Source of the DNA: Sandaracinaceae bacterium
GTDB lineage: Bacteria; Myxococcota_A; Polyangia; Polyangiales; Sandaracinaceae
Reading direction: 5' to 3'
Assembly: GCA_040218145.1 (NCBI GenBank)
Contig: JAVJQK010000110.1
Coordinates: 1-64,000 of the forward strand
DNA length: 64,000 nucleotides
The number at the start of each line of letters is the position of its first letter. Positions within the stretch are counted from its first letter, which is position 1. This document shows positions 3,125 to 49,348 of the stretch, piece by piece. Under the pieces are notes generated by a model. It did not search any database and was not told the DNA's origin. It saw only the letters and a program-made list of their open reading frames with translations. A program made the translations under genes and the position numbers.

Positions 3125-4045
3125 CTCGTCGCCGCCCTGAACGCGGCGCTCGGTCTCGGCATCCAGGGCGCCGAATTTCAGTCGAAGGAGCTTCGTGAGG
3201 AGCTCGACTCGCCCCTCCTGACGCCCCAGGGCGTGTCCCTCCTCCTGCCTCTTGCGGCCGAGCATCTCTTCGAGCTCCATGACTTCCTCCCGTACCCGAG
3301 GGCTCAGATGTGTCCGGACCTGCGCGAGGAGGTCCTCACCCGGGCGGCTGATGAATCCAATATAGCCAATGAGGCTCGCCAACGCCTGGGCCGCGTCGTC
3401 GGCCGCGGCGACCTGGTCGAAGAGCCCCGAGAGGTCCGCTGCGGTCGAGACGAAGCCGCGATCGAAGGCGCTCCTCAACGCCCAGATGGCCAGGGTGGCG
3501 AACGCGGGCAGTCCCCGGGCCTTCAGCTCCGCCACGTCCAGCTGGCTGAGGTCGTCCAGCAGGTAGCAGAGCCGCGGCGTGAGCGAGCCGAGCTCCGACG
3601 CGAGGTGAGCGTTGATCGAGAGCGTCGCGCCGAGGTCCAGCGGCACCCTCCAGGGGCGCGCGCCGTGATAGACGACGATCGGGACGATCAGCGGCAGCTC
3701 GAGCCGGCCGTCGACGACTTCGCCGTGGGAGTGCCACAGGCGCACGAGGTACTCGGCGACGCGGTAGGGCATCCGCGGGTCGGGCGTGCTCTGGTGCTCC
3801 ACGAGCACGTGGAAGAGGACCCATCGGTCGGCCATGCGACCCGAGAAGACGAGGTCGCTCGAGAGCCCGCGCAGCTCGGGGCCGACGCTCTCCGACGGTC
3901 GCAGCTCGAGGGTCGACCAGTCGACCGCGCGGGTCAGCGCCTCGGGCAGGAGGGACCGGAGCAGCGCGCCGCCACGCTCGACGTCCCCGAAGACACGCTT
4001 GAAGAGCGCGTCGTGCGGGGAAGGGTGCGTGGCCTCCTCGTCCAT
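3059..4045 (-). CDS. Rpn-family PD-(D/E)XK nuclease with DUF4351
   Basis: The 328-residue protein (ATG 4045) starts with the hallmark THPSPHDALFKRVFGD of the Rpn/transposase_31 family (PF04754). Nuclease core residues are visible: D64 in SSDLVF, and E83/Q85 in FHVLVEHQS. The C-terminal 60 residues form DUF4351 (LLRLKFGALDAETERRV). E. coli Rpn proteins are DNA endonucleases that promote RecA-independent recombination; many homologues are accessory genes and some are linked to phage defence. The adjacent truncated copy shows active local rearrangement. The start was chosen because the family motif begins a few residues after the Met. Confidence 0.85.
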   Translation of the reverse strand: MDEEATHPSPHDALFKRVFGDVERGGALLRSLLPEALTRAVDWSTLELRPSESVGPELRGLSSDLVFSGRMADRWVLFHVLVEHQSTPDPRMPYRVAEYLVRLWHSHGEVVDGRLELPLIVPIVVYHGARPWRVPLDLGATLSINAHLASELGSLTPRLCYLLDDLSQLDVAELKARGLPAFATLAIWALRSAFDRGFVSTAADLSGLFDQVAAADDAAQALASLIGYIGFISRPGEDLLAQVRTHLSPRVREEVMELEEMLGRKRQEEGHALGRQEGRVELLTKLLRLKFGALDAETERRVQGGDEVELDRWAERVLTAERLADVFA

Positions 4046-4086
4046 CGATGACAACCTCGCACGCTTTGTGCGGCGCGTCAACGAGG

Positions 4087-5508
4087 CTATCTGATATCCG
4101 GGAGCTCTTCGTCGTCGTCGAGGCCGGCGAGCACGCGGGCGCGCTGGACCTTCGCGTCCCAGTCGAGGGTGCGCTCGAGCACGATCCGCTGCGCCTGGGG
4201 CGAGCCCGCGCCGTGCATGCACTCGATGCGGAAGGGCACCGCGCCCGCGCCGTAGGTCATGTACTCGACGAGCCGGAGCGCCTTGGCCCGCGCCTCGCTC
4301 CCGAAGGCGGGCGCGAGCAGCTCGGCGAGCTCCGGGTGGGTGCGGTCGGCGAGCGAGGGGAGGGTGCTGATGGCGCCGCCCGCGAGGTCCTCGGCCAGCC
4401 GGCCGATCTCGTACGGCAGGCGCGTGACGTTCTGCTTGCAGACGTTCGCGAGCACGGGGTCGACCTCCCAGATGCCGCTCGCGTGCGCGGTGCTCTTGGC
4501 GCTCGCCGCGAGGCCGACGCCGTGCACGGTCTCGGCGAGGTGCGCCATCTCGACGAGCTTGTCCCGGACGTGGCTCGCGCGCCGCACGCCGTGCTCGCGG
4601 GCGAGGAGATCGCTGGCCCCGATCAGGACGTCGAAGTTGCCCGGCTTGCAGCCGCCGTAGCTCGCGCGATGAAAGCCCGCGAAGCTCTCGACGAGCGTCG
4701 CGCACGCGGGAAGATCGCCGTCGAGGAAGACGCGCTCCTCCGGCACGAAGACGTCGTCGAAGATCACCACGCACTCCTGGCCGCCGAAGCGCGCGTTGCC
4801 GGCGTCGGGGCCGCCCTTGCGCCCGTCCGAGGGCTGGCGGCCGAGCACCATGCGCACGCCCTCGGCGTCGACGGGCATGGCGCAGGCGATCGCGAAGTCC
4901 TCCTCGCCCTCCCGCAGGGCCTGGCCGGGCATGAGCAAGATCTGATGCGCGTTCGCGGCGCCGGTCTGGTGCACCTTCGCGCCGCGGATCACGACGCCGC
5001 CGTCTCTCCGCCCGACGACGCGGACGTAGGCGTCGGGCTGCTCGGGCGGGCGCTTGCCGCGGTCGCCCTTCGGGTCGGTCATGGCGCCGTTGAGCATCTC
5101 GTCCCGACGCTGCACGCCCTCGAGCCACTTCACGAAGCGCGCGTGCTTCTCCTCGCTCGCCTCCCACGTCGCGATGAAGAGGGCGTTGATGCCGTCCATG
5201 CCGACGCAGCGCTGGAAGCAGGTGCCGGTCAGCCTCCCGAGGACGCGCTGGATCTCCACCTTCTTGATGAGGTCGTCGGGCGAGGTGAACAGGTGCGTGA
5301 AGCGGTTCACGGGCGCGTCGATGAGCTCGGAGTGCGCCGAGGCGAGGGCGGCGTGCGGGCCGTGCGCGACGGCGTAGGTGGCCGCGACGGCGTTGATGGC
5401 GGGGCGGACCTTGGGGTGGTCGACGGGATCGGGGATCCGCTCGCCGTCGACCCAGATCTCGAGCGTTCGCGCTCGGAGGCTCGCGATGTATTCGGCGGCG
5501 GTCTTCAT
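4087..5508 (-). CDS. abfD: 4-hydroxybutyryl-CoA dehydratase / vinylacetyl-CoA delta-isomerase-like enzyme
   Basis: The 473-residue protein belongs to the 4-hydroxyphenylacetate 3-hydroxylase fold family. It carries all four ligands of the unusual [4Fe-4S] cluster of AbfD: C97 and C101 in TCFQRCVGMD, then H280 and C287 in FHRASYGGC, with the same seven-residue H-to-C spacing as H292/C299 of the clostridial enzyme. AbfD dehydrates 4-hydroxybutyryl-CoA to crotonyl-CoA through a flavin radical. The N-terminal segment, with DGERIPDPVDHPKVRP, is also typical. No other 4-hydroxybutyrate pathway gene is nearby. Flavin and Fe-S content is inferred from the conserved residues. Confidence 0.85.
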   Translation of the reverse strand: MKTAAEYIASLRARTLEIWVDGERIPDPVDHPKVRPAINAVAATYAVAHGPHAALASAHSELIDAPVNRFTHLFTSPDDLIKKVEIQRVLGRLTGTCFQRCVGMDGINALFIATWEASEEKHARFVKWLEGVQRRDEMLNGAMTDPKGDRGKRPPEQPDAYVRVVGRRDGGVVIRGAKVHQTGAANAHQILLMPGQALREGEEDFAIACAMPVDAEGVRMVLGRQPSDGRKGGPDAGNARFGGQECVVIFDDVFVPEERVFLDGDLPACATLVESFAGFHRASYGGCKPGNFDVLIGASDLLAREHGVRRASHVRDKLVEMAHLAETVHGVGLAASAKSTAHASGIWEVDPVLANVCKQNVTRLPYEIGRLAEDLAGGAISTLPSLADRTHPELAELLAPAFGSEARAKALRLVEYMTYGAGAVPFRIECMHGAGSPQAQRIVLERTLDWDAKVQRARVLAGLDDDEELPDIR

Positions 5509-41705: not shown

Positions 41706-42860
41706 TCAGCCCGAGGAGACGGCGCGGAGCAGCCCGAAGGCGCTGGTGTAGCCGTGCAAGTGGGTGGCGCCGTGCACGGGGCCGATCTCGCCGTTGCCGA
41801 AGAAGCCCGCGACGGGCAGCGGGCCCAGCGCCTCGAACAACAGGCGGCTGTCGTGATCGGGCTCGCCGTAGAGGTGCTCGCCGCGCCCGAGGCACGAGAA
41901 CAAGAGCGCGCAGGCGGCGTCCCCGTGCGCCTCTCGATAGGTCTCGAGGTGGGTGCGCAGATCGGCGGCCGAGGTCTCCGCGTCTCGCACGTGGAGCTGC
42001 ACGACCGGGTAGCCCTCGAAGCGGCTCGCGACCACCAGCGCGCCGCGATCCTTCTCGACGCCGACCACGTTGCGGATCAGGAAATCGCCCGGGTGGTACT
42101 CGAGCTGTCCCTCCCGCATCTGCACGCCGCAGAAGAGCGCCTTCTGCATGCGCTCGCGGTCGGGGCCGTCGAGCGCGTCGTAGGTGTCGCGCAGCACGTC
42201 GAGCGGCTTGCCGCGGTCCAGCTCGAGGATGCGTGGCCCCTCCGCGCGCACGACGATCATCGGCTCGCCGATGGGCTTGCAGCCCTGCGCGACGACGGCG
42301 TCGAGCGTGACGTCGCCCTCGAAGGCCACGCCGACCGCGCCGTCGTCGAAGATCGCCCCGTCGACGAAGAGCGTGTTCTCGTTCGGCTGCTGGCCCCCGC
42401 TCGCCAGCCCGCCGACCAGGGACACGCCCGGGTTCGCCGCGTCGAACGCGCCGAGCATCGCCTCCACGTCGCAGCTGAAGGGATCGGCGAGGAGCACGAC
42501 CCCGCGCGGGGCGTCGCCGGCCTCGAGCGTGTTCGCGCCCGCCTCGATCCGGAGCGGCCTCGCGCGGGCCTTCTCCGGCAGCGCGATGGCGAGGAGCCCG
42601 AGCGCGGGCTTGCGCTCCCGCTCGAGGCCGCCCGCGATCACGCCGTCGCCGCTGCAGCCACAGACCACCGCGCCGCCGAACCGGTCGCGGATCCGCCTCG
42701 CGACGATCGTCGGGTCGCCCTCGGTCTTCGGGGAGACGAAGGCGAACACCACGGAGGCGTCCGACAGCTCGACCGCCAGCGCGTCCAGCGCCTCCGTGAG
42801 CGCCGCCTCGAGCGTGAGCCGTTCACTCAGCGCGGCCGCGGCTCGAAGGGGGGAGCTCAT
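41706..42860 (-). CDS. FIST-domain sensor protein
   Basis: The 384-residue protein has FIST_N (about 25-225; VVFAFVSP, VVCGCSGDGVIAGG, SLVGGLASGG) and FIST_C (about 230-375; EYHPGDFLIRNVVG, LLFSCLGRGEHLYG, VAGFFGNGEIGPV). FIST domains are thought to bind small ligands such as amino acids in signalling. It begins 9 bp after Fur on the same strand and is the last gene of a seven-gene run. Confidence 0.85.
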   Translation of the reverse strand: MSSPLRAAAALSERLTLEAALTEALDALAVELSDASVVFAFVSPKTEGDPTIVARRIRDRFGGAVVCGCSGDGVIAGGLERERKPALGLLAIALPEKARARPLRIEAGANTLEAGDAPRGVVLLADPFSCDVEAMLGAFDAANPGVSLVGGLASGGQQPNENTLFVDGAIFDDGAVGVAFEGDVTLDAVVAQGCKPIGEPMIVVRAEGPRILELDRGKPLDVLRDTYDALDGPDRERMQKALFCGVQMREGQLEYHPGDFLIRNVVGVEKDRGALVVASRFEGYPVVQLHVRDAETSAADLRTHLETYREAHGDAACALLFSCLGRGEHLYGEPDHDSRLLFEALGPLPVAGFFGNGEIGPVHGATHLHGYTSAFGLLRAVSSG

Positions 42861-42869
42861 CGGCTCTCG

Positions 42870-43292
42870 CTACTTCTTCGCCTTCGTGTCGAGCTTGACG
42901 CCGTAGAGCTCGAGCCGGTGATCGACGAGTCGGTAGCCCAGCTCCTCGGCCACCTTCTTCTGGAGCTTCTCGATCGCCTCGTTGGTGAACTCGACCACGT
43001 CGCCGCTCTGCACGTCGATGAGGTGGTCGTGGTGCTCCTGCGGAGCCTCCTCGTACCGCGCGCGTCCGTCCCCGAAGTCGTGCCGCTCGAGGATGTTCGC
43101 CTCCTCGAACAAGCGCAGGGTCCGGTACACGGTGGCGAGGCCGATCCCGGGGTCGACCTCCGAGGCGCGCTGATAGACCGTCTCGACGTCCGGGTGGTCG
43201 GTCGAGTCGGACAGCACGCGGGCGATCACGCGCCGCTGCTCGGTCATGCGGAGCCCCTTGTCGAGGCAGAGTTGTTCGAGACGCGATGGCAT
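42870..43292 (-). CDS. Fur-family regulator lacking the CxxC zinc site
   Basis: The 140-residue protein (ATG 43292, AGGGG upstream) has the Fur winged helix (GLATVYRTLRLFEEANILER) and HHDH metal ligands at 87-90. The structural-zinc CxxC after it is absent; positions 93 and 96 are Asp and Ser (LIDVQSGDVVEF). It is therefore of the Fur type that does without that zinc site. Iron, peroxide or another metal signal cannot be separated by eye. It is placed between the unknown gene at 43314 and the FIST gene, all on the same strand. Confidence 0.85.
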   Translation of the reverse strand: MPSRLEQLCLDKGLRMTEQRRVIARVLSDSTDHPDVETVYQRASEVDPGIGLATVYRTLRLFEEANILERHDFGDGRARYEEAPQEHHDHLIDVQSGDVVEFTNEAIEKLQKKVAEELGYRLVDHRLELYGVKLDTKAKK

Positions 43293-43313
43293 GGCTGACC
43301 CCTCGGAGAAAGA

Positions 43314-44147
43314 CTACTCGGGCCCCGTGGACGACGCCAAGCACAGATCCAGCGTCCACGCGTGCGTGACCTCGCCGACGTGCAGCACCGCCTCGAGGGT
43401 CTCCACTCCGTCGGCGACGAGGCCGATCCAGTAGCCTTCGCGCACGTCCTCCGTGGTGAGCCCCTCCCCCACGAGCCGGAGCGGCGCGGCGTCTTCGGCG
43501 TAGACCGCCAGCCTGCGATCGATGTCGGGATCGACCGGGCCCTCGAAGAGCACGGCCTCGGCCCCGATGTCGTCGAGCGCCCCCACGGTGCGACCCGCCG
43601 CGGGATCCAGCACGCGCGCCGCCTCGGCCGCGGCGAGGGACAGCGTGCGCCCCGTCGCCCCGCTCGCGCGCTGGGAGTGGCCCGCGGCCAGCGAGAGCAT
43701 GGCGCGCACCTCGCGCAGCGCGACGTCGGAGCGGCGCGCGCGCATCGCCAGGGCGCCCGCCGCGAACCCGTCGAGCTCGCCCTCGATCAGGCGCCGCAGG
43801 TCGCTCACCGGCAAGGTGGGCCGCGCGTCGCGCCGGGGCGCCTCCTCGCGAGGGAGCGGGCGGCCCGAGAGCGCTCGCAGACCGTCCCGCGCGATCGCCG
43901 CGCTCATGCGGAGCGCCTCCAGCTCGTCCTCGTCGAGGTCGCGGCCCCCGACGTTGAGCAGCGCGCGCTGCCCGGTCTTGCGGAGCGCGTCGCGCTCGGC
44001 GCTGGGCACCGCGGCCAGGGCTCCGGTCAGCTCGAGCGCCACGCTCATGGCGAGCGCCTCCAGCACCGGCTCCGGGTCTGCGCCCGGCGCCCAGCTGGCG
44101 GCCCTCTCGGCGCGGGTCCGCCACCCTCGAATCAACGCGTCAGTCAT
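43314..44147 (-). CDS. unknown soluble protein downstream of the repeat ORF
   Basis: The 277-residue protein starts at ATG 44147 with GGGAG six bases upstream. It is Ala/Arg/Glu-rich and mostly helical, with LRRLIEGELDGFAAGALAMR near the middle (an anti-sigma-like zinc-finger-free pattern cannot be excluded) and a beta-rich end (EGYWIGLVADGVETLEAVLH). No family was recognised. The frame stays open upstream through the 15-bp repeats to 44516, where the repeat would read RDEQV; the ribosome site favours the shorter form. Gene order suggests a partner of the sigma-like protein. Confidence 0.65.
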   Translation of the reverse strand: MTDALIRGWRTRAERAASWAPGADPEPVLEALAMSVALELTGALAAVPSAERDALRKTGQRALLNVGGRDLDEDELEALRMSAAIARDGLRALSGRPLPREEAPRRDARPTLPVSDLRRLIEGELDGFAAGALAMRARRSDVALREVRAMLSLAAGHSQRASGATGRTLSLAAAEAARVLDPAAGRTVGALDDIGAEAVLFEGPVDPDIDRRLAVYAEDAAPLRLVGEGLTTEDVREGYWIGLVADGVETLEAVLHVGEVTHAWTLDLCLASSTGPE

Positions 44148-44581
44148 CGTCTGCTCCCGTCGCCCGCTGAGGACTCGTCGCCGCTGCGTACCGACCTGCT
44201 CATCACGGGGGACCTGCTCATCACGGACCCGCTCATCACGAACCTGCTCATCACGGACCTGCTCATCACGGACCTGCTCATCACGAACCTGCTCATCACG
44301 GACCTGCTCATCACGGACCTGCTCATCACGGACCTGCTCATCACGGACCTGCTCATCACGGGGAGCCTGGCGCCGGCTCCGGCGCACCTTCGACGAAGGG
44401 GCTCCTGCGGCTCGGGACCTTCGCTGGCCCGTGCGATGGCCCGCCCGGGCGTCTGCCGTTCGGTGGCTTCGGCGCGTCGCGCCCTGCCACGTGGACCGAG
44501 ACGGGGGCGATCCCACGCAACTGACGCTTTTGGAGAAAAAACGCGCTCGACGTCGAGAGAGGCCGACTTCGCGCCGCTCAC
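44144..44581 (-). CDS. possible protein with eleven VMSRS pentapeptide repeats
   Basis: The 145-codon frame starts at GTG 44581, overlapping the stop of the sigma-like gene as GTGA. It ends in a TGA that overlaps the next gene's ATG as ATGA, so both junctions look like translational coupling. It has an Arg-rich N-terminal half of no known family, then VMSRS repeated about eleven times with VMSRF and VMSGS variants, then SGDESSAGDGSRR. Against it: all three variant repeat units change the amino acid in this frame, and the other frames are open too. Confidence 0.4.
   Translation of the reverse strand: MSGAKSASLDVERVFSPKASVAWDRPRLGPRGRARRAEATERQTPGRAIARASEGPEPQEPLRRRCAGAGARLPVMSRSVMSRSVMSRSVMSRSVMSRFVMSRSVMSRSVMSRFVMSGSVMSRSPVMSRSVRSGDESSAGDGSRR
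44193..44360. repeat. 15-bp tandem repeat, 11 units
   Basis: The unit GACCTGCTCATCACG (plus strand) is repeated eleven times. Seven or eight units are identical; two begin AAC, one has CCG for CTG, and a GGG insertion follows the first unit. Unit and insertion are multiples of three, so length changes never shift a frame. It lies between the sigma-like gene and the gene at 44147 and may be translated. Confidence 0.95.
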
Positions 44582-45339
44582 GAGGGCTCCTCGGGGCGAT
44601 CGCGCCGACGCTCCGGTCGGGGTTTGCCCGCGTCGGCGCGGCGCTCCTCGATCAGCTCCCGGATCACCGCGATCACGTCGTGCGCCTCGGCGTCCTCGGC
44701 CGCCCAGCGCTCGAGCCCTCTCAGCGCGGGCTCACGCCCTCGCTCGATCCACTTGTAGAGGCGGTCCTTGCCGATGGGCTCGCCGACCTCGAGCGCGTCC
44801 GTGATCTCCTCCGAGTCCCATCCGCAGACCACACGGAGCAGCGTCGCCTGCGCCTGCGTGCGCCGCAGGAGCCGCCGGCTCGCGCTCCGCACGTCCTCCT
44901 CGAGGGCTCGGTGCACGTGACCCATGCAGGTCTCCACCAGCTGCTCGAGCGCGCCGGGAGGGAGCACGCGCGCGTCGCTCGCCTCGAGCCGGTCGATCAG
45001 CGGCGGCCCGGGCGTGCGGGGCTCGTTCCGCATCCCCTCGAGCAGCGGGTCGTTCTTGCGGGCGCGCAGGGCGTCGACGCGCTTGCGCCGGACGATGGTG
45101 GCCACCCACTTCGCGCACTGGAGCGGCGCCTCCGCCCGCATCCCGCCCACGTGCCGGACGAGGCTGAAGAGGGCCTCCTGGCGCGCGTCGGCCAGGCCCT
45201 CTCGCTCTCCCGGGAAGGCGGCGTCGAGCCAGTCCGAGACCGCACGCCAGCGCGCGGCGTGCCGCGGATCGGTCGGATCCGCGGCTTCCTTCAGCGCGCT
45301 CAGGTGCGCGAACAACGGCTCGGCTGGGGGCAGGGCCAC
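44578..45339 (-). CDS. sigma-70-like (ECF-type) regulator
   Basis: The 253-residue protein (GTG 45339, 34 bp after the previous stop) has a region-2-like segment, FPGEREGLADARQEALFSLV...APLQCAKWVATIVRRKRVDALRARK, and a region-4-like helix-turn-helix, LLRVVCGWDSEEITDALEV...DRLYKWIERGREPALRGL. Similarity to classical ECF factors is modest and the linker is long, so it may be a divergent sigma factor or a sigma-derived regulator. The ends are charged. Its gene follows the Lon-domain/TPR gene and precedes the repeat ORF by a GTGA overlap. Confidence 0.6.
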   Translation of the reverse strand: MALPPAEPLFAHLSALKEAADPTDPRHAARWRAVSDWLDAAFPGEREGLADARQEALFSLVRHVGGMRAEAPLQCAKWVATIVRRKRVDALRARKNDPLLEGMRNEPRTPGPPLIDRLEASDARVLPPGALEQLVETCMGHVHRALEEDVRSASRRLLRRTQAQATLLRVVCGWDSEEITDALEVGEPIGKDRLYKWIERGREPALRGLERWAAEDAEAHDVIAVIRELIEERRADAGKPRPERRRDRPEEPS

Positions 45340-45373
45340 GCGCCGGGCATCCTCGTCAGCGCGGGCGGCGGAG

Positions 45374-47239
45374 TCAACCGAGGCGTGCGCAGAGGGCCAA
45401 CAGGTCGTCGAGGCGCTCCGCGGTCGGCGGGCCCACCTCGATCTGCGCGCGGACCTCACGCAGGGGCGCACCGAGGAACGCGTCCGCGTGCCCGTGACGC
45501 GGGACGTGGGCCAGGGCGCGCGCGGCCCGGCCGGCGACGTCGCTGCTCCACGCACCCCGCGCGAGCCGCGCCCGGGCCTCGAAGAGCACGTTGAGGTGCG
45601 CGAGGAACGAGAGGTGGGGCTCGAGCGCGCGCCCGTGAACGACCGGGGAGGCCGCGAGGACCTCGAAGCCGTGCTCGCGATCGGGACCCTGGGCCAGCGC
45701 CACGCCGAGGTGCCGGCGCGCGAGCAGGCCCGGGAGCGGCTCTTCTTCCAGGCTCGCGCGCACCGCGGGCACGTCGAGCGCGGCGATCGCCTCCTCCGGC
45801 CGATCGAGGGTCACGAGCGCGCCGGCCCAGCTCGTGCGCACCCAGCTCTCCCGCGACCCGCCGTCGTCCCCGCCGACCACCAGGGCGTCGAGCGCGGCCT
45901 TCGCCTGGATCCGGGCGCCGGGCTCGTCTCCCGCCGCCGCGTGGGCCTCGATCAGGTAGGCGCGGGTGCGCGCGTTCCGGCTCGGGTCGTGTCGCTCCGC
46001 CACCTCGAGCGACTCGGCGAACGCCTCGATCGCGCCCTCGGTCTCGCCCCGCGCCATCGCCACGAGCCCCGCGCAGCCGAGCGCCTTGATCAGCTCGCCG
46101 CGCAGCCGTGCGGAGCGCGCGATCTCGACCGCCCGCGCCGCCGCCGTCGCCGCGTCCTCGAAGCGGCACAGCTGACGGTGCGTCATCGCGGTCTGCTGGA
46201 AGAGGTAGGTCAGCGGGCCGTCGGGCACCGCGCGCCGGCCCTCCTCGGAGAGCGCGATCAGCTCCGCCTCGTGCAACAGGTCGAGGCTCCTCGCCGGGTC
46301 GCCCAGGTGTCGGTGGGCCGCCGCCGAGCGCGCGAGCGCCTCGACGCGCAGGTCCAACCGGCCCTCCGGCAGGGTGCCGCCGAGCCGCGAGAGGGTCTCG
46401 CGCACGGTCGGCCAGCGGTAGCCACGCCAGCCGGTCGAGAAGACGCGACGGGCTTCGTCCATCGCGCGGTCCGGGTGCGCGCGCGCCTTCGCGGGCGAGA
46501 GCGTCTCCGCGATCAAGGCCTCGAGAGTGCCGACGCCGACCACCGCCACGCGCCCCGCCGCGCAGCGACGCGCCTCGGCCGCGTCGCTGGCGGGCACGAC
46601 GATGCGGTCCGCCCCGTGCTGCGCCGCCGCGTCGACCTTCGCCTCCATCTCCCCCACGGGCAGGACCGCGTCTCCTCGCACCGCGCCCGTGACGACCGTT
46701 CGCGCTCGGATCGGCCGCTCGCTCCAGAGCGAGATCGCGGACACGAGCGCCGCCGCGCCGAGGGAGGGGCCGTCGATCTGTGAGCGGAGGAGCGCGGCGG
46801 GCTGGGCGGCCACCAGGCGATACTGCTCGAGCGCCCGCGGCGGAGCGGTGTGTCGCGCCGCGGCGCCGAGCGCGTCTCCCAGCGCGCGGCGCGCGCGCGG
46901 GTGCAACCAGGCGTCGTCGACCCAGAGCCCGACCGGGTCGAACGCGACGTGCACCTGGCGCACGAAGCCGACCCCGTGGTCCTTCGCCACGAGTGGGACG
47001 GCGACGGCGTGCGGGAGCCGTGGGGCCGACGCGGCGGCCACCGTGGACGGGTCGACCCGCAGGCTCGCCGCCGCCTCTCGCTCGGCCTCGGAGACCGCGC
47101 CCGGGTCGGCGCTCATCAGGCCGCGGGCCAAGGCGTCGAGGGCGAACCGACGGGCGGCGATCCCGCGCGCGTCCCGGACGCCCTGGAGCAAGAGATCGAT
47201 CCGACCGGCGACGATCGCGAGCTCGGCGTCCCAGCGCAC
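45374..47239 (-). CDS. stand-alone Lon-type (S16) protease domain fused to TPR-like repeats
   Basis: The 621-residue protein (GTG 47239 behind GGGGAG) has a Lon proteolytic domain at about 80-240. The catalytic Ser is S159 in SQIDGPSLGAAALV and the Lys is K201 in VLPVGEMEAKVDAAAQHGAD; they are 42 residues apart (43 in E. coli Lon). No AAA+ or Lon N-domain is present. The C-terminal 350 residues are Ala-rich helical pairs typical of TPRs (TAMTHRQLCRFEDAATAAARAVEIAR, EGAIEAFAESLEVAERHD). It could be a protease delivered to partners through the TPRs, perhaps acting on a regulator encoded downstream. Confidence 0.75.
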   Translation of the reverse strand: MRWDAELAIVAGRIDLLLQGVRDARGIAARRFALDALARGLMSADPGAVSEAEREAAASLRVDPSTVAAASAPRLPHAVAVPLVAKDHGVGFVRQVHVAFDPVGLWVDDAWLHPRARRALGDALGAAARHTAPPRALEQYRLVAAQPAALLRSQIDGPSLGAAALVSAISLWSERPIRARTVVTGAVRGDAVLPVGEMEAKVDAAAQHGADRIVVPASDAAEARRCAAGRVAVVGVGTLEALIAETLSPAKARAHPDRAMDEARRVFSTGWRGYRWPTVRETLSRLGGTLPEGRLDLRVEALARSAAAHRHLGDPARSLDLLHEAELIALSEEGRRAVPDGPLTYLFQQTAMTHRQLCRFEDAATAAARAVEIARSARLRGELIKALGCAGLVAMARGETEGAIEAFAESLEVAERHDPSRNARTRAYLIEAHAAAGDEPGARIQAKAALDALVVGGDDGGSRESWVRTSWAGALVTLDRPEEAIAALDVPAVRASLEEEPLPGLLARRHLGVALAQGPDREHGFEVLAASPVVHGRALEPHLSFLAHLNVLFEARARLARGAWSSDVAGRAARALAHVPRHGHADAFLGAPLREVRAQIEVGPPTAERLDDLLALCARLG

Positions 47240-47270
47240 GTCTCTCCCCAATCGGGCCGGCGGGCGGGGC

Positions 47271-47597
47271 TCAGGTCAGGAGCTGCTCGAGGAGCTCGAA
47301 GTTCTCGACCTCTTCTTCGGCGATGTCTCCATCGACCTCGATCATCTCCCGGACCGTGGTGAGGAAGAGCGCGCGGTGCTCCTGCGGGATCTGCGTCGGG
47401 TCGAGCTCCTCCGCCGTGGGCGGCAGCTCGAGCCACTGCTCCACTTGCTTCCGCTCGTCGTCGTCGAGCTTGAGCTTTCGCACGAGCTTCTGGACCATCT
47501 TCACTTCGCTCTCGGCGATCTGGAGGTCCGCCCAGGCGAACGAGCAGACGAACTTCATGAGGCGAAGACGTTCTTCTTTGTCCAGCTGCTTCAGCAT
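47271..47597 (-). CDS. TerB-like protein
   Basis: The 108-residue all-helical protein (ATG 47597, GGAG upstream) has the TerB-fold pattern: LMKFVCSFAWADLQIAESEV near the start and REMIEVDGDIAEEEVENFEL near the end, each with the acidic D-G/L-x-I-x-x-x-E loop. TerB domains bind metal in tellurite-resistance and membrane-stress systems. It starts the minus-strand run, 31 bp before the Lon/TPR gene. Confidence 0.75.
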   Translation of the reverse strand: MLKQLDKEERLRLMKFVCSFAWADLQIAESEVKMVQKLVRKLKLDDDERKQVEQWLELPPTAEELDPTQIPQEHRALFLTTVREMIEVDGDIAEEEVENFELLEQLLT

Positions 47598-47694: not shown

Positions 47695-47877
47695 TCACTC
47701 GGGGGCGGTCGTCCCCGTCACGCCGCCGAAGGACTGCGCCGCGCAGCCGGCCACCCGCTCCCCGGTGAGCTCCGCGAACATCCAGAGCCCTGCCAGGGCG
47801 CCGAGGATCAGGACGAGGACGAGCCGCCAGAGGAAGCGTCGATCCCGCCTGAAGGCTTCTTCCTCCAGATTTGCCAT
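47695..47877 (-). CDS. small single-span membrane protein
   Basis: The 60-residue protein (ATG 47877) has a charged N-terminus (MANLEEEAFRRDRRF), one transmembrane helix (LWRLVLVLILGALAGLWMFA) and a short periplasmic tail with one Cys. It is divergent from the acyltransferase gene. No family recognised. Confidence 0.6.
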   Translation of the reverse strand: MANLEEEAFRRDRRFLWRLVLVLILGALAGLWMFAELTGERVAGCAAQSFGGVTGTTAPE

Positions 47878-48028
47878 TCGGTGCCTCACTGTGAAACCTC
47901 CCGCCCCGCTTGCAAAGCGGACCTCTGAGGACCAGGGAAGGTTCCGTACGCGAGATGTGCTCTTGAGCCCCGCGCCTTTTTGCGCGATACCGCGCAGCAC
48001 ATCCGCACCCGCTCTGGAGGACTCTGCG

Positions 48029-49348
48029 ATGGCGACCACGGTGACCATGCCTCAGCTCGGCGAGAGCATCGTCGAGGGAGAGATCGGCGACTGGCTCGTG
48101 AAGGAAGGCGAGAAGGTCTCGCGAGATCAACCCCTCGTCACGATCCTCACCGACAAGACGGACACCGAGATCCCGGCGCCCGAAGACGGCGTCGTGACCA
48201 CGATCATCGCGCAGACCGGCGAGACCGTCTCGGTCGGCGCGGAGCTCTGCACGATCGACGCGAGCGCCGAAGCGAGCGCGGGCGGGAGCGGGGAGGCGGC
48301 GCCTGCGCCCGAGCCTGAGCCCGAAGCGTCCGGCGGCGGCGAGCCGCCCGCGGCGACCCCGTCGGTGCGGAAGCTGGCCCGCGAGCGCGACGTGGATCTC
48401 GAGCGCGTGACCGGGACCGGCGAGCACGGCCGCATCACGCGCGAGGACGTGATGAAGGCCGCGGAGGGCGGCCCCACGGGCCCGCAGCAGGCGGCTCCCG
48501 CCTCGCAGCAGGCCCCGACCCAGACCCGCCGCGCGGACGTGCCTCCCGCGCCCCGCCAGGCCCCCGCGCGGCCCGCCCAGGGCGGCGGCGCCCAGACGGC
48601 CATGAAGTTCGACGCCGGCTCCTTCCGGGTGCCCGGCTACCAGGAGCGGCCGGGCGACGAGGTCGTCCCGTGGAGCCGCCGGCGGCGCATCATCGCCGAT
48701 CACATGGTCTACTCGAAGCTGACCTCGCCCCACGTGGTCACCTTCGCCGAGACCGACATCCACGCCACGAACCGCCTCCGCGAGACGCACAAGAAGGCGC
48801 TGCGGGCCGAGGGGATCAACCTCTCGCATCTCGCCTTCGTCGCCGCCGCCACGTGCCGCGCGCTCCGGGAGCACCGCGCGATGAACGCGCGCGTCCTCGA
48901 CGAGAGCACGGCGCTGCTGAAGGAGATCAACCTCGGCATCGCGGTGGAGACCGAGGACGGCCTCGTCGTCCCCGTCATCAAGCACGCCGACGAGCTGAGC
49001 GTGCGCGGCCTCGCGCGGGCCATCGGCGAGATCGCCGACAAGGCGCGCGACGGCAAGCTCACGCCCGACGACCTCAGCGGCAAGACGTTCACGATCTCGA
49101 ACCCCGGTCGGAAGGGGAACCTCGTGGGCGGCGCCATCATCAGCCAGCCCAACGTCGGCATCCTGCGGATGGGGGAGATCAAGAAGCGCGTCGTGGTCAT
49201 CGACCAGGACGGCGTCGACGCGATGGCGATCCACCCGGTGATGTTCATGGCGCTCAGCTACGACCACCGCGTGGTCGACGGCGTCGAGGCGAACAGCTTC
49301 CTCTACCGCATCCACGAGCTGCTCGAGGCGGGCGACTTCGAGGTCTGA
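48029..49348 (+). CDS. 2-oxo acid dehydrogenase E2 (dihydrolipoyl acyltransferase)
   Basis: The 439-residue protein (ATG 48029, GGAGG upstream) has an N-terminal lipoyl domain with modified lysine K43 in LTDKTDTEIPAP, a Pro/Ala/Glu linker, and the E1/E3-binding domain (ATPSVRKLARERDVDLERVTG). After a second Pro/Gln-rich linker comes the catalytic domain ending with YDHRVVDGV (active-site His and Asp). It transfers acyl groups to CoA in pyruvate, branched-chain or 2-oxoglutarate dehydrogenase complexes. No E1 or E3 genes are adjacent, so the complex type is undetermined. Confidence 0.88.
   Translation: MATTVTMPQLGESIVEGEIGDWLVKEGEKVSRDQPLVTILTDKTDTEIPAPEDGVVTTIIAQTGETVSVGAELCTIDASAEASAGGSGEAAPAPEPEPEASGGGEPPAATPSVRKLARERDVDLERVTGTGEHGRITREDVMKAAEGGPTGPQQAAPASQQAPTQTRRADVPPAPRQAPARPAQGGGAQTAMKFDAGSFRVPGYQERPGDEVVPWSRRRRIIADHMVYSKLTSPHVVTFAETDIHATNRLRETHKKALRAEGINLSHLAFVAAATCRALREHRAMNARVLDESTALLKEINLGIAVETEDGLVVPVIKHADELSVRGLARAIGEIADKARDGKLTPDDLSGKTFTISNPGRKGNLVGGAIISQPNVGILRMGEIKKRVVVIDQDGVDAMAIHPVMFMALSYDHRVVDGVEANSFLYRIHELLEAGDFEV

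Follow-up and report, generated by a model that had tools for sequence, protein, structure and literature searches.

Three genes that lie side by side on the minus strand of the DNA analysed here, a 64-kb stretch (the window) of the 11.06-Mb draft genome of a Sandaracinaceae bacterium, encode a Lon-type protease with a TPR solenoid, an ECF sigma factor and a putative soluble anti-sigma factor. We propose that the TPR-gated protease cleaves the anti-sigma factor, freeing the sigma factor, and give this reading a probability of roughly 0.6. Regulated proteolysis controlling transcription had already been suggested in a first-pass annotation of the window, and the idea is now supported by the joint occurrence of the three genes in 10 of 379 genomes, mostly as neighbours, by the alignment of the sigma protein with ECF factors and by the anti-sigma-like domain in the third protein.

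Read along the minus strand, the region carries genes for a TerB-like protein (47271..47597, 108 aa; Pfam TerB, E 2e-6), the Lon(S16)-TPR protease (45374..47251, 625 aa; Pfam Lon_C, E 3e-6, and TPR_2, E 1e-5, with an NCBIfam match), the ECF-type sigma factor (44578..45339, 253 aa; Sigma70_r2, PDB and ECF profile matches), the putative anti-sigma factor, previously listed as an unknown (43314..44147, 277 aa; assigned from its place beside the sigma gene and from a zf-HC2 profile match), a Fur-family regulator (42870..43292, E 3e-39) and a FIST-domain protein (41706..42860, E 3e-37). The successive gaps are 19, 34, 430, 21 and 9 bp. For the protease gene, the GTG at 47239 is another likely start. 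Upstream of TerB, the minus strand encodes a short protein with a single probable membrane helix (47695-48048), which adjoins a divergent dehydrogenase E2 gene and has the same place in several close relatives. All the genes named in the first-pass annotation are real and were correctly placed on the minus strand, except for a "repeat ORF". The single strand stands. Since this ORF is no gene, the stated gaps of 34 bp or less do not hold at its position, where 430 bp separate the sigma gene from the former unknown. Known RNA elements were not found within 37-52 kb of the window. The earlier view also depended on the absence of promoters between the genes; no sigma70-type promoter was seen in the gene run, a result that says little at this G+C.

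The supposed repeat ORF is a non-coding 15-bp minisatellite located between the sigma and anti-sigma genes (44193..44361, about 11 tandem copies of the minus-strand unit GTGATGAGCAGGTCC). The G+C content of its three codon positions is 0.55/0.66/0.81, compared with approximately 0.8/0.5/0.9 in the neighbouring genes, and no protein matching its product was found in the relatives. The array occurs at a single site in the whole genome, which rules it out as a dispersed regulatory element. Read in the frame of the anti-sigma gene, the minisatellite would encode RDEQV repeats, so there is a slight chance that the anti-sigma protein extends N-terminally through it.

The predicted structure of the protease (AlphaFold2, pLDDT 90.7) consists of a helical N-terminus, an S16 domain (residues ~80-252) and a TPR solenoid (~260-625). 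The protein matched archaeal Lon in a PDB profile search (E 7e-12), and in structure comparisons the S16 part superposed on Lon protease domains over ~170 residues (Z 22, 2.1-2.8 Å) while the TPR part matched LGN, NprR, MalT and other TPR proteins (Z 21-22); the closest solved folds for the solenoid include LGN, MalT domain III and the peptide receptors NprR and Rap. Ser163 and Lys205 are invariant in all 11 alignment rows that span both positions, and also in L092 and L094. By its fold and its Ser-Lys dyad, the protein is a member of peptidase family S16. The first-pass annotation had described a Lon dyad without ATPase but with TPRs, and this description proved right: the dyad is kept in every ortholog that covers it, and no AAA+ ATPase was found on the chain, Pfam detecting Lon_C and TPR only and the model containing no such domain. 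The absence of the AAA+ domain rules out an ATP-dependent Lon (LonA or LonB). The protease shares with LonA, LonB and LonC the S16 catalytic fold and the dyad, and differs from them in having no AAA+ ATPase and in carrying a TPR C-terminus. The same genome holds a second Lon_C match (L007; contig C54 of G000, 3969-4289), in a 500-aa open frame that is possibly another Lon domain without a full ATPase.

The sigma-like protein of the first-pass annotation was confirmed as such. Sigma70_r2 was found in all nine orthologs and sigma4, weakly by Pfam, in one of the nine; the PDB matches were SigL, SigE and SigH, and the profile of the protein aligned with 19 ECF factors across both sigma2 and sigma4 (probability 98.5). 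On these sequence comparisons, we classify it as an ECF sigma factor, containing sigma2 and sigma4 only. Its C-terminus is a private tail, RRADAGxxRPxRR (also written RRADAGKxRPxRR), near-invariant in the orthologs and present in none of the 19 other ECF factors compared. In other systems, terminal tags mark regulators for turnover by Lon proteases, and the tail, which is basic, could be such a tag; the protease would then act as an off-switch by degrading the sigma factor, and the anti-sigma factor would protect or inhibit the latter. We consider this unlikely. A role of the tail in binding promoters or the anti-sigma factor is just as plausible, and processive degradation is improbable for the Lon-TPR protease, because it has no unfoldase; a limited cut in a linker would fit better. 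Moreover, in the known sigma circuits with Lon-like and TPR-bearing proteases, it is the anti-sigma factor that is cut (PMC11417357, PMC10028731).

The third protein is probably a soluble anti-sigma factor with a zinc-less anti-sigma-like domain, because its profile matches zf-HC2 domains modestly but in register and one of its orthologs carries the motif HVAHCTPC. The model (AlphaFold2, pLDDT 87.2) comprises a helical bundle (residues 3-93), a middle domain of three helices (114-161; GELDGFAAGALAMRARRSDVALREV) and an Ig-like beta sandwich (186-267), with no evident membrane helix in either sequence or model. The middle domain was aligned without gaps, over 37 columns, to 19 authentic zf-HC2 domains of the same genome group. 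With the L042 ortholog omitted, the two profiles scored 20.1, against a maximum of 11.1 in 98 valid column shuffles; two further shuffles, not among the 98, reached 132 with only 7-9 columns aligned, which is an hhalign artefact of a numerical kind. The hhalign probability was 24 percent without L042 and 86 percent with it. In L042, and in this ortholog only, HVAHCTPC supplies a full HxxxCxxC in register at the zinc positions. The HxxxCxxC motif is absent from the protein of the window, which therefore does not belong to the zinc anti-sigma (zf-HC2/ZAS) family.

Pfam and PDB family searches with the protein of the window gave no match, and the N-terminal bundle and the C-terminal beta domain are large additions to the middle domain. 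Both observations would suit a different role, such as that of a co-activator or scaffold, with the protease processing this protein or something else. Against it stand the in-register zf-HC2 match, the HxxxCxxC of the one ortholog and the fact that the gene always lies beside an ECF sigma gene, where anti-sigma genes are usually found, and we regard such a role as quite unlikely. A fold search of the model found no anti-sigma structure, which excludes nothing, the middle domain being barely tested; only the C-terminal beta sandwich was matched, to adaptin-ear-like folds at Z up to 7, within chance.

To see how the three genes are distributed, we searched one set of 379 genomes from the phylum with a profile of the protease, a profile of the sigma factor and a profile of the anti-sigma factor. 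Sigma matches were called strong below 1e-14, the ordinary ECF factors of many genomes starting at 3e-11. Strong matches to the three proteins fell in an identical set of 10 of the 379 genomes. The chance of the trio falling on one ten-genome subset is ~7e-20 per pair under the assumption of independent genomes, which does not hold; the patchy family f4, in which four of the 18 genomes, from four genera, have the complete trio and the rest have none of it, gives a fairer estimate of 1/3060 per pair. Five more protease-bearing genomes, outside the 379-genome sample, all have the anti-sigma gene. G013, a fragmented draft, has the protease and the anti-sigma gene with no sigma gene detected, and is too fragmented for judging the linkage of the protease to the sigma pair; G005 has neither a true protease ortholog nor an anti-sigma gene. 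The trio was found in a single order of Myxococcota only, and a scan of named genomes returned five matches, all in uncultured Deltaproteobacteria or Sandaracinaceae-type bins.

The sigma gene has the anti-sigma gene beside it in 10 of 10 genomes, and likewise wherever both were found. The protease gene is next to this pair or one gene away from it in 8 of the 10 genomes (11 of 15 in the wider set). The order protease, sigma, anti-sigma occurs in six genomes (G000, G001, G006, G024, G238 and G377). One gene separates the protease from the sigma gene in G002 and G004 (a coiled-coil protein) and in G015 (PrsW), the sigma/anti-sigma pair is inverted to face the protease gene in G008 and G042, and in G003, G007 and G010 all three genes are present with the pair on a separate contig. 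That the protease gene lies apart from the pair in G003 and G010, and that Fur, FIST and TerB illustrate how neighbours turn over here, might suggest that the protease gene came to lie by chance beside a functionally unrelated sigma/anti-sigma pair in one lineage. We find this highly improbable, as the trio co-occurs exactly even where it is unlinked, and in L041 and L047 the genes stay together even though their order is rearranged and convergent. The intervening protein of G002 and G004 (L038:11408-12835 and L044:1218-2636; related stretches are present in L048 and L049) combines a coiled coil with repeated beta domains and a single probable membrane helix, and has no Pfam family. In G015, contig C326 (L134/L127) carries a second sigma/anti-sigma pair; the examined part of the contig contains no protease gene.

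The remaining genes of the region behave differently. Only in close relatives does TerB precede the protease gene, and it is accessory or merely co-located; Fur is a neighbour in only two other genomes and FIST in none of the relatives examined, and both are outside the conserved core. The expected conservation of the protease's neighbours in related genomes was therefore seen for the sigma gene and the former unknown, and not for Fur and FIST. With these two not conserved and the repeat ORF non-coding, the seven-gene operon envisaged at first is ruled out. The joint sensing of metals or small molecules by TerB, Fur and FIST as parts of one system is not supported by this distribution. A shared promoter motif upstream of the module was not apparent in the relatives, where dyad counts were no better than in shuffles.

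In two relatives, G015 and G010, a gene for a PrsW-type membrane protease lies directly upstream of the sigma gene (match in G015, E 1e-48; identity between the two, 59 percent). The source genome has a copy 57 percent identical, unlinked to the trio. The PrsW loci form one orthologous group (L042:7950-9062, minus strand; L093:7120-8232, plus strand; and L111). A Bacillus relative of PrsW starts RsiW cleavage, and the presence of PrsW beside the sigma gene is, by analogy, a further hint of proteolytic release of the sigma factor. The RsiW/PrsW processing pathway is the subject of PMC3498285. The systems of regulated intramembrane proteolysis, RsiW/PrsW/SigW and RseA/DegS/RpoE, resemble ours in that PrsW homologs adjoin the sigma gene in these two relatives; however, the anti-sigma factor described here has no evident membrane helix, and the linked protease is the Lon-TPR protein.

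Two CRISPR-associated circuits follow the logic proposed here. In the type III CRISPR system CalpL/CalpT/CalpS, cleavage of an anti-sigma factor by a Lon protease releases an ECF sigma factor (PMC11417357, PMC12751052). As here, a Lon-type protease without ATPase is fused to a sensor domain, a presumed one in our case, and accompanied by an anti-sigma and an ECF sigma factor. However, CalpL has a SAVED domain, which binds cA4, whereas the C-terminus of our protease is a TPR solenoid; because it has no SAVED domain, it is not CalpL. The anti-sigma factor also differs, combining an anti-sigma-like domain with a beta sandwich. Finally, CalpL comes from type III CRISPR, whereas the present trio was found only in one Myxococcota order and PADLOC detected no CRISPR or defence genes among ten neighbouring proteins. 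In the type III-E system Csx29/Csx30/CASP-sigma, the TPR-CHAT protease Csx29 cuts the inhibitor of an ECF sigma factor (PMC10028731). The two systems share a TPR-bearing protease and an inhibited ECF sigma factor, the inhibition and its relief by cleavage being proposed in our case. Csx29, however, is a caspase-like CHAT protease, RNA-guided through Cas7-11, whereas ours is a Lon (S16) protease by sequence and structure; because its protease domain is not CHAT, it is not Csx29. Text searches of the open literature (subscription papers being outside their scope) gave no description of a Lon-TPR/sigma/anti-sigma system.

In the proposed switch, the anti-sigma factor would, at rest, bind the ECF sigma factor through its zinc-less anti-sigma domain and hold it away from RNA polymerase. 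The TPR solenoid, which we infer to be the sensor, would recognize a signal, probably a protein or a peptide, and the signal-bound TPR part would then draw the S16 domain, which works without ATP, into an active assembly. Cleavage of the anti-sigma factor, the presumed substrate, would follow, and the freed sigma factor would transcribe a regulon of its own.

Sigma release by cleavage of an inhibitor is known as membrane cascades and, more recently, from CRISPR effectors. On balance, we lean towards the view that the trio represents a class of stand-alone, non-CRISPR, protease-gated sigma circuits, composed of an ATP-independent Lon-TPR protease, a soluble zinc-less anti-sigma factor and a tailed ECF sigma factor, in which the signal is received by the TPR in place of a nucleotide-binding domain. 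A circuit of this kind that is built on Lon-TPR, and lacks CRISPR genes in the regions inspected, would mean that the design is more broadly used. The trio would also supply a defined substrate pair for a Lon protease without ATPase, in a three-protein system that is directly testable. If the reading is true, the sigma circuits of CRISPR Lon and TPR-CHAT would each be one particular form of a more general design.
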